This document shows positions 27,822 through 33,474 of a DNA stretch of 34,314 bases, one piece after another (positions within the stretch are counted from its first letter, which is position 1; the number at the start of each line of letters is the position of its first letter). The position numbers and the translations under genes are program-made. The stretch comes from a virus, in IMG/VR virus record IMGVR_UViG_3300021963_000389, positions 1-34,314 of that record. One strand, 5' to 3'. The notes below the pieces were generated by a model that was given only the letters and a program-made list of their open reading frames with translations, searched no databases and was not told where the DNA came from.

Positions 27822-28187
27822 ATATTTTTATATTTATAATAACTATGAACCCCTATCCCCGTCAGAATATTCGTGATAGATTTTTTCATATAATTCTCCA
27901 CATAATGTGTATAATACGTATATCATATAAACTTTTAATTGGCAAGATTTTATATGAAGATTTTAAAAACCGACTAAAATTTTTCAGAGATGGCATTATT
28001 AGATCGGTTCTAAGAAAGTAAATCGAAAGTATTTTGACCACGGAAATCTCGTTCCATCCAAAGTCACACATTCAAGGTAGCGGTCTATCACGGTAATTCG
28101 GTTAATCTTAATAACTTACTGTTTCGCGTGAATATCCGTATATGATATATGACGGATAACTTATAGTTCATCACAGGTAACTTTACG
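27822..28187. other. Gene-poor stretch between small genes and the tmRNA
   Basis: Both strands hold only weak short frames: 58 residues on + at 27845-28021 and 61 residues on - at 27886-28071. Neither has a credible start signal or composition. On the minus strand just after the tmRNA there is an inverted repeat (ATCCGT near 28134-28139 and ACGGAT at 28152-28157), which may be a 3' processing or weak termination structure, though it has no T-run. I see no tRNA in this stretch. Confidence 0.5.
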
Positions 28188-28570
28188 GGTGGAGCCAGCG
28201 GGAGTTGAACCCGCGTGGACGATATTTACTCAACCCAAGACTACACGTTTATAGTTTTTGTTTTTTCGTGAAACTGATACTAAAACTCGAAAGTTCCGTT
28301 TCCTTAGATTTGAGTTATTTTGACATACCAACCAAATCAAATGGTTTGTCTAGCTCGATATATAACGTGATACAGAAATATCGTGCGTCAATCTGCATCA
28401 CGGGCAGCCTAATTAGGCTACGGCGTATTCGGCCTCGACACCTTCTGGTGTGAAGTCGTATGCGATTACGTTATTAGCGTTTATTTTTTGATAGTTTTTT
28501 TAAGAGGCCGACCATCATCCTCTACGTGCCTTAGATTTCGTTTACACCGCCTCGAAACCAGTATGGCCCC
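28188..28570 (-). ncRNA. ssrA: Transfer-messenger RNA (tmRNA), one-piece type
   Basis: A complete single-piece tmRNA. The 5' end GGGGCCA pairs with TGGCTCC near the 3' end to form a 7-bp acceptor stem with one G-U pair, followed by discriminator A and CC; the final A of CCA is not encoded. The T arm is GCGGG-TTCAACT-CCCGC. The 5' part has GGTTTCGA, as in bacterial tmRNAs, and AGAGG/CCTCT can form pseudoknot 1. After ATAAAC the resume codon GCT (28478) opens a 21-residue tag that begins ANNVIAYDF and ends AEYAVA; its TAA is at 28413-28415, in the loop of the next hairpin (GTAGCC/GGCTGC). The tmRNA rescues stalled ribosomes and marks their products for proteolysis. A sigma70-type promoter lies upstream. 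Identification is firm. Confidence 0.95.
28413..28478 (-). other. tmRNA tag-peptide reading frame
   Basis: 22 codons from the resume codon GCT to TAA. The tag starts ANNVIAYDF, continues TPEGVE, and ends AEYAVA. It is about twice as long as the common 10-14 residue tags, but keeps a small hydrophobic end (A-V-A in place of L-A-A), which is what ClpXP-type proteases read. Confidence 0.85.
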
Positions 28571-29813: not shown

Positions 29814-29852
29814 TTTAAAAAAAAAAATAAACCGCCAGAATATTCTGACGGT
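29814..29852 (-). terminator. Rho-independent terminator after the beta-barrel gene
   Basis: Minus-strand stem ACCGTCAGAA-TATTCTGGCGGT, with one G-U type mismatch, followed by TTA and a run of ten T. It lies 30 nt after the stop of the beta-barrel gene. Confidence 0.85.
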
Positions 29853-29881
29853 CTATTATTATAATTAAGTAATGTATCTTG

Positions 29882-30649
29882 TTAGAAACTTAACTTAACA
29901 CCAGTGGTAAAGGCCAAATTGCCCTCAAACTTACGTGCCACTAAAGCAGTGTCAGTGGTCACATATCCAACATCAACATATGGCTTCAAATACTTAATAC
30001 CAGTATAAGCCAAAGTTCCACCAGCCGTATAACTCGTGTGTTTGTCAAACAAATACGCCTCAGCTCTAGGCGTCAATTCAACTCTGCCCAAAACAAAAGT
30101 TCTGTCAACGCCCACTGTAGCACCAAATAAACGAGTGTCAAAATCCCGCGCCACCTTAACATAAGGAGTAGCCAAAACAGTCAACACAGGAAACTTGTTC
30201 AAACGCAATCCACCATACGCAGTAAGTGTATCACTAAACGCACCACCAATCATACGCTTCTCAACACCACCAACCGCCGTCATAGCAACAACGTCATTGC
30301 CAAGTCTACGTGAAACATTCGCATCAAAAATAGCCTGATCAGCATTTTCTCCACGAATAAAATAAGTAACTCCCACCTGAGGCGTCAAAATCGAATTCTC
30401 TAACGCCACCGTTGAAGCCACAAACGCACTGTTTTTCTGAAATTGCAAACCAAGATGATTCGCCCGTGTCGTATAACCAGAATCAAAAGTAACTCTCGGA
30501 GTCACCACAAATTCTGACTTCGCCACCGCCCGCGTCATCAATGAATTTACATTCGAATTAGTGTTAACTTTTGCAGACTGTGCCATTAGATCACTAAAAC
30601 CTAAGAACACAATCAAGATTAACATAATATTTTTTATTGTTTTTGTCAT
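29882..30649 (-). CDS. Secreted outer-membrane beta-barrel protein
   Basis: 255 residues from MTKTIKNIMLILIVFLGFSD. A classical signal peptide (KTIKN, hydrophobic core, then DLMAQS) is cleaved near residue 23-25. The mature part alternates polar and apolar residues (FVVTPRVTFDSGYTTRANHL, TPYVKVARDFDTRLFGATVG) and ends in F (FTTGVKLSF), the usual assembly signal of outer-membrane barrels; 8-10 strands would fit. The frame is open 14 codons upstream, but AAGGA sits 10 nt before this ATG. Phage-made barrels such as Lom of lambda change the cell surface or block superinfection, so a similar role is inferred here. It has its own terminator and two palindromes upstream. Confidence 0.75.
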   Translation of the reverse strand: MTKTIKNIMLILIVFLGFSDLMAQSAKVNTNSNVNSLMTRAVAKSEFVVTPRVTFDSGYTTRANHLGLQFQKNSAFVASTVALENSILTPQVGVTYFIRGENADQAIFDANVSRRLGNDVVAMTAVGGVEKRMIGGAFSDTLTAYGGLRLNKFPVLTVLATPYVKVARDFDTRLFGATVGVDRTFVLGRVELTPRAEAYLFDKHTSYTAGGTLAYTGIKYLKPYVDVGYVTTDTALVARKFEGNLAFTTGVKLSF

Positions 30650-30666
30650 ATTTTTTTTTCCTTTTA

Positions 30667-30706
30667 TTTCAATTGAAACTAAACTACACATTCAATTTCA
30701 ATTGAA
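30667..30706 (-). promoter_or_regulatory. Pair of palindromes upstream of the beta-barrel gene
   Basis: TTTCAATTGAAA (30667-30678) and TTTCAATTGAA (30696-30706) are identical over 11 nt with centres 29 bp apart, close to three helical turns. They lie just upstream of the Shine-Dalgarno site and are good candidates for operators bound by a dimeric regulator. No clear -35/-10 pair could be fixed, so the promoter position is not given. Confidence 0.5.
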
Positions 30707-30777
30707 GATAACTATAACTAAATAAATAAAACAGTCAAATATAATAATTGAAACCTACGTAAATACCTAATAACCAA

Positions 30778-31932
30778 TTACTTATAAGAACGCATCAAAT
30801 CTTTAGGATTTATCTTCAAATCCCTAATACGTTGTAATATTTGCACCGCACTCGTGCCATAACCACGAAAATTTTTCTCCAACTCACGATACAAAATATC
30901 CGACGAAATACTTTCATCATCACCTTCCAACTTGTCAAATACCTTAATAACCACTCGTTGCAAATCTACCTCGCCCGCCGCCAATGCCGCAGTCAAAGCC
31001 TCACTTTCACTACGCAAATTCTTTAACTCCAATAAATAACGATTACGCTCGCCCACACTCAAAGCCGCCTTCTTCGCATGAAAATCACGCTCTAAATTCA
31101 CCAACCTTTCATTCACATTATCCAAACGAACCTCAATCTCATTTTTTATCTTCTTCGCCTCCGTATTCTGTCGGTTAAATAATTCATCGTAACTCAAAAA
31201 AATATAAAATGAAGAATTATTATAATTCTTATACTTGCCAGAATTTATCACTTCAAACTTCACCATCATCTTATCTAAACCAATAATCTCAAAAATTTTG
31301 TGAATCTCATCACGTCGACTCAAATAATTCTCAACATAACCATCCCACATGCTAAAATAATACTGTTTATCAACCCTATATATTCTAAATCGAAGATTCT
31401 TTTTATGATCATTTTCATAATAATCATAATAATTACTCTTCAAATTAATTATCCCCTCAAATGAACTATGACCAAATAAATAACGTCCGCCACCACCATC
31501 AGGTCTATGAATCGAATCTTCAATCTCCTTCGCCACACGTTCACCATCATTACCAGCACGAATCACCTTCACAAAATAATTAACCAAACCACCAATACGC
31601 TCATTGCCTACCAAAATCCGCCCACCACCATTATCAATATCAAATATAATTCCCGTCACCACATTAAAATTACCTTCATCATAAGAATAATATATATTAT
31701 CAACTTTAATTCGATCCGTAGACTCTTTCAATTTTTTGTGGTTTTTCTCCACCTGCTTACTCACAATACCACCATTCTCTTTTGCCAATATATTCAATAT
31801 ATCACGTAACTCATTTAAATTATCCGCCCGCTCAACACCTCTAATCACACTGCCCATTACATAATAACCACCAGACAATGAACGAACAATCTTGATATAT
31901 TCTTTATTCCTAAAATTAATACGCGTTATCAT
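30778..31932 (-). CDS. Coiled-coil protein of unknown function
   Basis: 384 residues. The N-terminal 240 residues are mixed, with Gly-rich turns (DNGGGRILVGNERIGGLVNY, RPDGGGGRYLFGHSSFEGII). A charged coiled coil runs from about 255 to 320 (KIKNEIEVRLDNVNERLVNL, ELKNLRSESEALTAALAAGE), and the tail (SDILYRELEKNFRGYGTSAV) is helical. No cysteines, no signal peptide. Coding-strand base use is very G-rich compared with C, more extreme than in the tail genes. It lies between the beta-barrel and SET-domain genes. No family recognised. Confidence 0.6.
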   Translation of the reverse strand: MITRINFRNKEYIKIVRSLSGGYYVMGSVIRGVERADNLNELRDILNILAKENGGIVSKQVEKNHKKLKESTDRIKVDNIYYSYDEGNFNVVTGIIFDIDNGGGRILVGNERIGGLVNYFVKVIRAGNDGERVAKEIEDSIHRPDGGGGRYLFGHSSFEGIINLKSNYYDYYENDHKKNLRFRIYRVDKQYYFSMWDGYVENYLSRRDEIHKIFEIIGLDKMMVKFEVINSGKYKNYNNSSFYIFLSYDELFNRQNTEAKKIKNEIEVRLDNVNERLVNLERDFHAKKAALSVGERNRYLLELKNLRSESEALTAALAAGEVDLQRVVIKVFDKLEGDDESISSDILYRELEKNFRGYGTSAVQILQRIRDLKINPKDLMRSYK

Positions 31933-31976
31933 ATTAAATATATATCAAATACATTTCCTTGTATTCACATTTAACC

Positions 31977-32351
31977 TCAATGCTTCACCCACCCACCACT
32001 CCAATACGACTCACCATAATTGATAAATACCTCCTCACCCAACACTATCTTACGCAAAGTCTTTATGTAAATTCCACCATCAGTCGTATACCACATCGCA
32101 TTATTATTATCCGCATGATTATAAATACTCACATATCCCAACGCAATAACATAAACATCACTGCCCTGTGGAAAAGAAAATACATACTTCTTTAACTCAT
32201 ATGGCACCTCCCCCCACATAGATGCATAACTCCTTATCACAGGACTATACTCAATCACTAACCCACCCTCTAACTCACTACCACTATATACCCCCAAACC
32301 ACGCCGCTCACTATCACCCAAATATAAATTCTCATCAATAAAATACTTCAT
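31977..32351 (-). CDS. SET-domain protein, viral-type minimal form
   Basis: 124 residues, nearly only the SET domain, like the small viral SET protein of chlorella viruses. Signature parts: RRGLGVYSG (17-24) for the first SAM-contact loop, SIYNHADNNNAM with N78-H79 and N84 standing for the canonical N-H-x-x-x-x-N, and GEEVFINYGESYW (105-117) with the conserved tyrosine Y112. SET domains are SAM-dependent lysine methyltransferases. The post-SET Cys cluster is absent. The target could be a host or phage protein; nothing in the sequence says which. It is the last gene before the repeat/G-rich region and has the same strong G-over-C coding bias as its neighbour. Confidence 0.8.
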   Translation of the reverse strand: MKYFIDENLYLGDSERRGLGVYSGSELEGGLVIEYSPVIRSYASMWGEVPYELKKYVFSFPQGSDVYVIALGYVSIYNHADNNNAMWYTTDGGIYIKTLRKIVLGEEVFINYGESYWSGGWVKH

Positions 32352-32429
32352 ATCAATATCATATTTTGTATACTATTATAAAATCTATATAAATCAAATT
32401 AAAATAAATTTTTACCACCCAATCATCTT

Positions 32430-32608
32430 CATAAAAAATCTTTTCCCGTGTTTTTTTCAAACCTTCACAAAATAATAACTTTTCTACCCCACAAAATCAC
32501 AACTAATCAACAAATACCCCCCATAAAAAAATCTTTTCCCGTGTTTTTTTCAAAAAATAAACCAAATAATAAAAAATAATCAAACAAAATCACAAATCAA
32601 CAACAAAA
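32430..32608. repeat. Imperfect tandem repeat of about 92 nt, two copies
   Basis: Copy 1 starts at 32430, copy 2 at 32522. The first part (CAT, 6 or 7 A, then TCTTTTCCCGTG, 7 T and CAAA; 32430-32461 and 32522-32554) differs by one A. Further on ACAAAATCACAA recurs near 32491 and 32585, so the whole unit is duplicated and then diverged. The conserved TCTTTTCCCGTG core could be a protein-binding site. Confidence 0.8.
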
Positions 32609-32660
32609 AAGTTTCAAGAAAAATATTCGGTGTGTGTCAGGAACCTCTGGCCGTCAGTTT

Positions 32661-32850
32661 GGGGTGGGGGCTCCCCTATTCAGAAGTGGGGGGTACCGTC
32701 ATTTTGGGGGTATTTTGTGGGGGTCTGGGGCGGGAGAGTTGTGTATTTGGGTATGGGTGGGGTATGGTGATGGGTGGGGATTTGGGTATAAGTGTTTGGT
32801 GAGGATGGGTGGAGGTATGGATGTGGTAGAGTATGTTGGGTGGTGGGGTG
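32661..32850 (+). other. G-run tract with G-quadruplex potential
   Basis: Many runs of 3-6 G on the + strand: GGGGTGGGGG near 32661, then GGGGGG, GGGGG, GGGGG, GGGG and GGG in 32687-32735 with loops of 12, 8, 3 and 1 nt, and GGGTATGGGTGGGG near 32750. Several overlapping near-canonical quadruplex motifs result. This adjoins the tandem repeat and the skew flip. Confidence 0.55.
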
Positions 32851-32851
32851 G

Positions 32852-33436
32852 TTACTGAATTTTCTGATAGGTGATGGCGGCGCGGCCACGGCCTGAGGAA
32901 GATTTGGTGCGTTTGATTTCGATGATGGAGCCGGTGGTGGAGAGTTTTTTAATTTCGATATAGGCGAGAGGTTGGGTCCATTGGGGGTTGATGGCGAGCA
33001 ATTGTTTCATGGTGAAGCCATCTTGGTGGGTAGGAAAGACGAGGTTTGGACGTTGGGTTTTTGGGCGACCTTTGGATTTTTTAATGGTTGGGGTTAGGGC
33101 TTGGATGGTGGTTTTGGGTTCAACGGGCGTGTTTTTGTTTTGAAACAGTTGGTTGAGTTTATTGAGTGCGGCTTGGCGGTTATTGAACGACCAGGCGTAG
33201 TGTCCCCATTGGGAGGTTGAGGGGTAGCGTTCTTCGTCTTCGGCGAGGATTTGTTTGAAGATTTGGGTACCTGCTTTGAGGGTTTTGATGATGATGGTTT
33301 CGTAGTCTTTTACTATGTTCTTGCGACTACGTTCATAAACCGCGAAGTTTTGTTTGCGTGCGATTTGTTTATAGGTGAGGGGTTCGGATGAGTAACCACC
33401 TTCGCCGCTGACAAACTGTGTTTCGAGTGTTTTCAT
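32852..33436 (-). CDS. AT-hook / winged-helix-like DNA-binding protein
   Basis: 194 residues. The middle has a basic AT-hook-like stretch, KKSKGRPKTQRP (about 123-135), and the C-terminal 60 residues (GFTMKQLLAINPQWTQPLAY, IEIKKLSTTGSIIEIKRTKS, then GRGRAAITYQKI) resemble a small winged-helix domain: F-T-x-K-x-L...V/I-x-K-L...G-x-I-x-x-I...G-R-G-R-x-A-x-x-Y. The coding strand is C/T-rich, opposite to the genes left of 32.6 kb. The promoter at 33447-33474 puts its start very close to the ATG. A regulator or a protein binding the neighbouring repeats and G-rich tract is a reasonable inference. Confidence 0.65.
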   Translation of the reverse strand: MKTLETQFVSGEGGYSSEPLTYKQIARKQNFAVYERSRKNIVKDYETIIIKTLKAGTQIFKQILAEDEERYPSTSQWGHYAWSFNNRQAALNKLNQLFQNKNTPVEPKTTIQALTPTIKKSKGRPKTQRPNLVFPTHQDGFTMKQLLAINPQWTQPLAYIEIKKLSTTGSIIEIKRTKSSSGRGRAAITYQKIQ

Positions 33437-33446
33437 TTGTAGAAAC

Positions 33447-33474
33447 AGTATAGACCTTTTTTATAGAAAGTCAA
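33447..33474 (-). promoter_or_regulatory. Sigma70-type promoter of the AT-hook gene
   Basis: Minus-strand TTGACT, 16 nt, TATACT, with the -10 box ending 10 nt before the ATG, so the leader is only a few nt long. The -35 overlaps the TGA of the preceding gene. Extended -35 CTTGACTTTCTATA is shared with the tmRNA promoter. Confidence 0.75.

Follow-up and report, generated by a model that had tools for sequence, protein, structure and literature searches.

The noncoding interval from 32.35 to 32.85 kb of the T4-like phage analysed here is predicted, with a little more confidence than doubt, to be a replication origin. An abrupt inversion of strand bias coincides at this place with a noncoding element (32,434-32,711), in which an invariant core is combined with a G-run tract and with three iteron-like repeats set in AT-rich DNA. 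Four phage lineages have the element, each time as a single copy per contig and at a corresponding place in the gene order. An origin is the favoured reading, and a transcription boundary is its main rival. A preliminary description had proposed a candidate origin from the skew. This proposal was strengthened by the conserved repeat element at the switch and by a signature of two transitions at fourfold-degenerate sites, but the skews of two relatives, G001 and G003/G004, did not fit it. An origin is still the best explanation because a repeat-bearing element is conserved and the mutational signature is of the single-strand type, which goes beyond skew alone.

The window (W) is the entire IMG/VR record of 34,314 bases, a fragment of a phage genome. 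Its gene set is T4-like (baseplate wedge, PhoH, primase); a tmRNA and a SET-domain protein are encoded as well. Among annotated genomes, that of Microcystis phage Mel-JY01 is nearest, with a baseplate wedge protein that is 41% identical. The SET-domain protein (124 aa, gene 31977-32351, minus strand, Pfam E=1.1e-07) had no tblastn match in G003, G004 or the 103-kb relative G001 (IMGVR_UViG_3300020221_000005). The tmRNA is encoded on the minus strand at 28187-28570 and carries the tag ANNVIAYDFTPEGVEAEYAVA; the G003 lineage also has a tmRNA (L042, 488-871). Gene 29882-30691 (minus strand) encodes a conserved protein resembling a secreted outer-membrane barrel; it has its own early-type promoter and terminator and is found near the element in relatives. 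The coordinates of the features are given in Table 1.

Table 1. Positions of the features at and around the skew switch of the window
Feature	Positions	Strand	Remarks
Gene-free interval	32352..32851	.	Flanked by the last early gene (32852-33436) and the first structural-side gene (31977-32351); from ORF list and sequence
Conserved noncoding block	32599..32711	-	Four lineages; nhmmer profile matches W, G001, G003/G004 and L071; alignments
Invariant core CTATTCAGAAGT	32676..32687	+	Gene strand reads ACTTCTGAATAG; GGTACC then at 32692-32697
Iteron-like repeat 1, CACCGAATATTTTT	32619..32632	-	Near-constant distance to the core (55-56 bases; W, G001, G003/G004)
Iteron-like repeat 2, CACGGGAAAAGATTTTT	32527..32543	-	
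Iteron-like repeat 3, CACGGGAAAAGATTTTT	32434..32450	-	
93-base tandem repeat, 1.9 copies	32433..32607	+	Contains iteron-like repeats 2 and 3; AT-rich
G-run tract	32654..32850	+	Quadruplex-forming potential only with loops of up to 12 allowed
Early gene 32852	32852..33436	-	194 aa, no known family, adjoins the element
Sigma-70-like early promoter of gene 32852	33447..33474	-	TTGACT-16-TATACT
Strong intrinsic terminator	29826..29857	-	After the outer-membrane-like gene 29882-30691; left bias arm ends here
Right bias arm	32605..33436	+	Plus strand G- and T-rich; fourfold GC skew of gene 32852 -0.88 (gene strand)
Left bias arm	29882..32604	-	Minus strand G- and T-rich

Extent and nature of the strand bias

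With arms of 1 kb, the GC skew of the window changed from -0.68 to +0.46 at position 32,610. The second-largest jump was 0.30, compared with 1.14 at the switch, a value reached in 0 of 1000 shuffles (block sizes of 200, 500 and 1000 bases). The flanking genes to the left and right are both on the minus strand, and the abrupt inversion at unchanged gene direction was thereby confirmed. The skew ranged from about -0.55 to -0.84 between 31 and 32.5 kb and from about +0.5 to +0.76 between 32.6 and 33.1 kb. The G-rich DNA described to the right of the switch was present, but it ended at about 33.35 kb, beyond which the skew was about zero. A tandem repeat of period 93, AT-rich DNA (76% A+T at 32,352-32,640) and G-run DNA (16 runs of GGG or longer within 32,604-32,860) were all found where the preliminary description had placed them. 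The stretch is also free of genes, as the ORF list of the window contained no reading frame of at least 80 amino acids within 32,352-32,851.

The GC content increased from about 0.35 to about 0.45 at the switch, which would suit a contig joint or a chimera. However, five other contigs contain a 68% relative of gene 32852 and share the gene order and conserved bases across this point, and in two further lineages the element lies upstream of the same genes. A joint, which had been named as a possible refutation, is excluded by these five colinear contigs and is given hardly any weight here. The five contigs are near-identical and were counted as one lineage.

At fourfold-degenerate sites the GC skew of the gene strand was -0.61 over the 1.5 kb that precede the element and +0.73 and +0.68 over the 3 kb that follow it; past 3 kb it was +0.11 and then about +0.05. 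Three genes of the left arm had values of +0.67 to +0.88, and the next gene had +0.16. The bias reached about 0.8 kb rightward and about 2.8 kb leftward. Of the 33 ORFs in the window, the five with the most deviant skews all lie beside the element or overlap it, and one of these five is a spurious ORF in the noncoding interval. Because the bias is present at fourfold-degenerate sites it is not protein-driven, and protein content cannot account for it. Relative to distant genes, G and T were increased and C and A decreased on one and the same strand on the structural side. This one-strand signature looks like a combination of C to T and A to G. In mitochondrial genomes, deamination of single-stranded DNA gives C to T with A to G, and by analogy the pattern would be that expected from deamination in single-stranded DNA.

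The G-rich strands that had been described as running outward in both directions correspond to this mirrored bias, but the extreme bias is local and no trend over whole replichores was seen. Ordinary replichore skew would not be confined to so short a distance, which counts against an origin. The cumulative GC skew of the 34-kb window had its minimum at 32,604, as anticipated, whereas the minima of G001 (1.3 kb, with the element at 35.6 kb) and of G003 were not at the element; all of these are partial contigs.

A noncoding element shared by four lineages

The element has a common layout, with an invariant ACTTCTGRATAGGGG that is preceded by GGTACC in three lineages, a CACAC(C/G)G..TTTT repeat 51-56 bases past the core, and more copies of this repeat in AT-rich DNA. 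In the window three iteron matches were found inside the element and none elsewhere in the 34 kb. In G003 three of the four matches in 80 kb fell in the element, while shuffles of the region averaged 0.004. The strict pattern gave three matches each in W, G003 and G004, and one match plus one degenerate copy in G001; three repeats, two of them identical and one diverged, were recognized by eye in L071. As in iteron origins, a cluster of direct repeats lies beside AT-rich DNA and is kept in relatives, although this is weak in G001, where the low number of repeats counts against an origin. The AT-rich tandem-repeat stretch is a candidate unwinding region.

No quadruplex pattern with loops of up to 7 was present in the G-run tract. 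A conserved hairpin was not detected, as the element folded no better than shuffles (z of -1.3 to +1.2). A known structured RNA at the element was rejected, since only the tmRNA elsewhere reached the Rfam threshold. One weak DnaA-box-like site was located near the element of the window, and there was none in the other lineages. Among 2.9 million IMG/VR viral contigs the core pattern matched these relatives only, once per contig, and the exact 93-base repeat unit was not found in other viral contigs. Seven matches in 257 Gb of bacterial genomes consisted of the core alone and were taken as chance. The annotated phages yielded no significant match to the element, that in Mel-JY01 being suggestive only.

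The strand bias flips at the element in three of the four lineages (W, G001 and L071), and in these the sign change is independent of gene direction; this was not so in G003/G004. The largest skew jump of G001 (+0.74 at 35,680) lies at the place matching the switch of the window. The fourth lineage, L071, was found through PhoH, and a profile made from the first three lineages only matched it with E=1.4e-12. Its largest jump (+0.72) is also at the element, with skews of -0.43 and -0.56 before and of +0.5 to +0.65 after it. In L071 the early-side neighbour of the element is another gene, and the contig covers only about 0.4 kb of that side; neighbour genes differ among the lineages though the jump is at the same place in G001 and L071. 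The element was absent from the outgroup L073, which has other neighbour genes.

In the third lineage (G003, G004 and L040) the element is upstream of the homolog of gene 30778. A single-sequence search gave no relatives of this gene, which were reached later via neighbour genes. G003 and G004 retain the element without the inversion (fourfold skew +0.31, then -0.20), and this counts against an origin. Where they adjoin the element, gene 32852 and its homolog had fourfold skews of -0.88 and -0.91, compared with -0.20 for the G003 homolog 11 kb away. The position effect suggested by these values is weakened because G003 is unbiased near its own element too.

A second strong skew jump of G001 (+0.63, at about 1190-1370) lies near a pair of CCGCCTCGAGGGGGGGTACCACCCCC palindromes. 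Two palindrome copies, CCGCCTCGAGGGGGGG(G)TACCACCCCC(C)TC, are situated there about 110 bases apart, and a gene on the opposite strand is found to the left. The skew minimum of G001 is at the same place, and both count against an origin at the element. The locus is a possible second origin, and two origins would not be strange, since T4 has several (PMC3016281). In L060 (Flavobacterium phage immuto) a jump of +0.57 was seen at about 17,720 in a small early-gene cluster, with no lasting change of gene direction.

Origin, transcription boundary or packaging site

On the gene strand, 18 occurrences of the early promoter motif TGACTTTYTATAA were found to the early side of the element and none to the other side (W, G001 and G003). 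The early promoters are host-type, and because these sites occur on the early side only, the element marks the border between the early genes and the structural block. That early-type promoters cease exactly here speaks for a control region of early and structural transcription (a promoter, terminator or Rho-loading site), a reading considered rather unlikely. The bias would then be caused by strong leftward transcription with a rightward antisense transcript, or by a C-rich, G-poor Rho-loading stretch ending the early unit. The left bias stops at the intrinsic terminator after gene 29882 and therefore fits a prediction of the transcription model; the same coincidence counts against an origin. 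The right bias stops near the start of gene 32852. Rho-loading sites are C-rich and G-poor, and the early-side RNA is strongly so. However, the right arm runs counter to its own gene and would require an unseen antisense transcript, promoter-like sites were at chance level with no conserved promoter seen in the block, and the bias of G001 runs past the terminator (one small gene). Rho loading would leave about 2.8 kb of left fourfold-site bias unexplained, and the C-rich stretch is missing in G003.

Eight of the ten element-bearing contigs (W, L002-L005, L040, L041 and L071) start less than 7 kb from the element on its early-gene side, as would suit a packaging or recombination site, with the element as terminase recognition site or preferred genome end. 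The starts nevertheless differ in their distance (0.4-6.9 kb), and two of the contigs extend 28 and 35 kb through. Repeated early promoters in the cluster could break assembly, and the contig starts are probably such breaks. In Mel-JY01 the large terminase (15.8 kb) and the corresponding interval (about 150 kb) are widely separated, and a cut site predicts no mirrored mutational bias. Packaging at the element is accordingly regarded as improbable.

For an origin, the extreme skew jump sits exactly at the element. A protein would bind the repeats or the core, the AT-rich DNA would then open, and forks would depart in both directions. Displaced strands near the start may stay single-stranded long enough for deaminations (C to T and A to G), and each outward strand would become G- and T-rich over the first 1-3 kb. 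An initiator protein or gene for the element was not identified, which counts against an origin. Gene 32852 was rejected as initiator: it belongs to no family, its G003 homolog is 11 kb from the element, and its structure model was unusable (pLDDT 43). It is conceivable, though doubted more than believed, that the element represents a new family of phage origins, absent from annotated phages, in which core, three iterons and G-run tract would prolong single-strandedness and lead to mitochondria-like deamination over 1-3 kb per side. Explanations other than an origin, a transcription boundary, a packaging site or a joint make up the rest of the probability.

To our knowledge, the origins of most large uncultured phages are unknown. 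If the origin reading is true, origins in this clade could be predicted from sequence alone by a conserved marker, to which the strand bias first drew attention and which an independent lineage confirmed. A clade that combines conserved iterons with a mutational trace that can be seen would make the iteron-origin question testable. If the element is a transcription boundary instead, its unusually strong local strand-bias footprint would still need an explanation.

Comparison with known systems

Iteron-bearing phage origins are already known; the element family is one without an annotated relative, and its unusual part is the local footprint of two transitions. Mel-JY01 also has a long noncoding interval (149,966-150,808), which lies where the matching structural block starts and contains GGATAGGGG and ACCGAA..ATTTTT 14 bases apart. 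After detrending, the skew of this 190-kb genome has its minimum at 146.6 kb, though a broad one. However, the profile match was not significant (E=24) and the skew inversion is absent. In the same genome (PP395634.1), CCCCCGGGGG palindromes are densely arrayed at about 123,600-124,400, in DNA that is free of genes, lies near a change of gene direction and shows a skew jump of -0.65.

In T4, oriE has conserved iterons (direct repeats) in syntenic places of relatives, and oriE, oriF and oriG are located at shifts of compositional bias; the oriE iterons were not tied to origin activity (PMC3016281). The window is T4-like as well, with repeats conserved at a syntenic position and a bias shift at the site. 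In contrast to these T4 origins, the transcribed strand does not switch in the window, and unlike those of oriE its repeats are not evenly spaced 12-mers. The R-loop origins oriF and oriG consist of a middle promoter and a downstream unwinding element with a persistent R-loop. At the site in the window AT-rich DNA is present, and promoter-like sites are at chance level.

Iteron origins of plasmids and of PLE, the satellite of phage ICP1 (PMC7145576), likewise have few direct repeats and A/T tracts in a noncoding interval. The putative origin differs from them in having only three diverged repeats and no identified initiator gene. In PMC4182315, fourfold-site bias of vertebrate mitochondrial genomes is argued to be a sign of replication orientation. 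The strand asymmetry of vertebrate mitochondrial DNA resembles the bias described here in affecting one strand, in pairing C to T and A to G changes and in being strong at fourfold sites, but in the window the bias is mirrored on both sides and limited to 1-3 kb.
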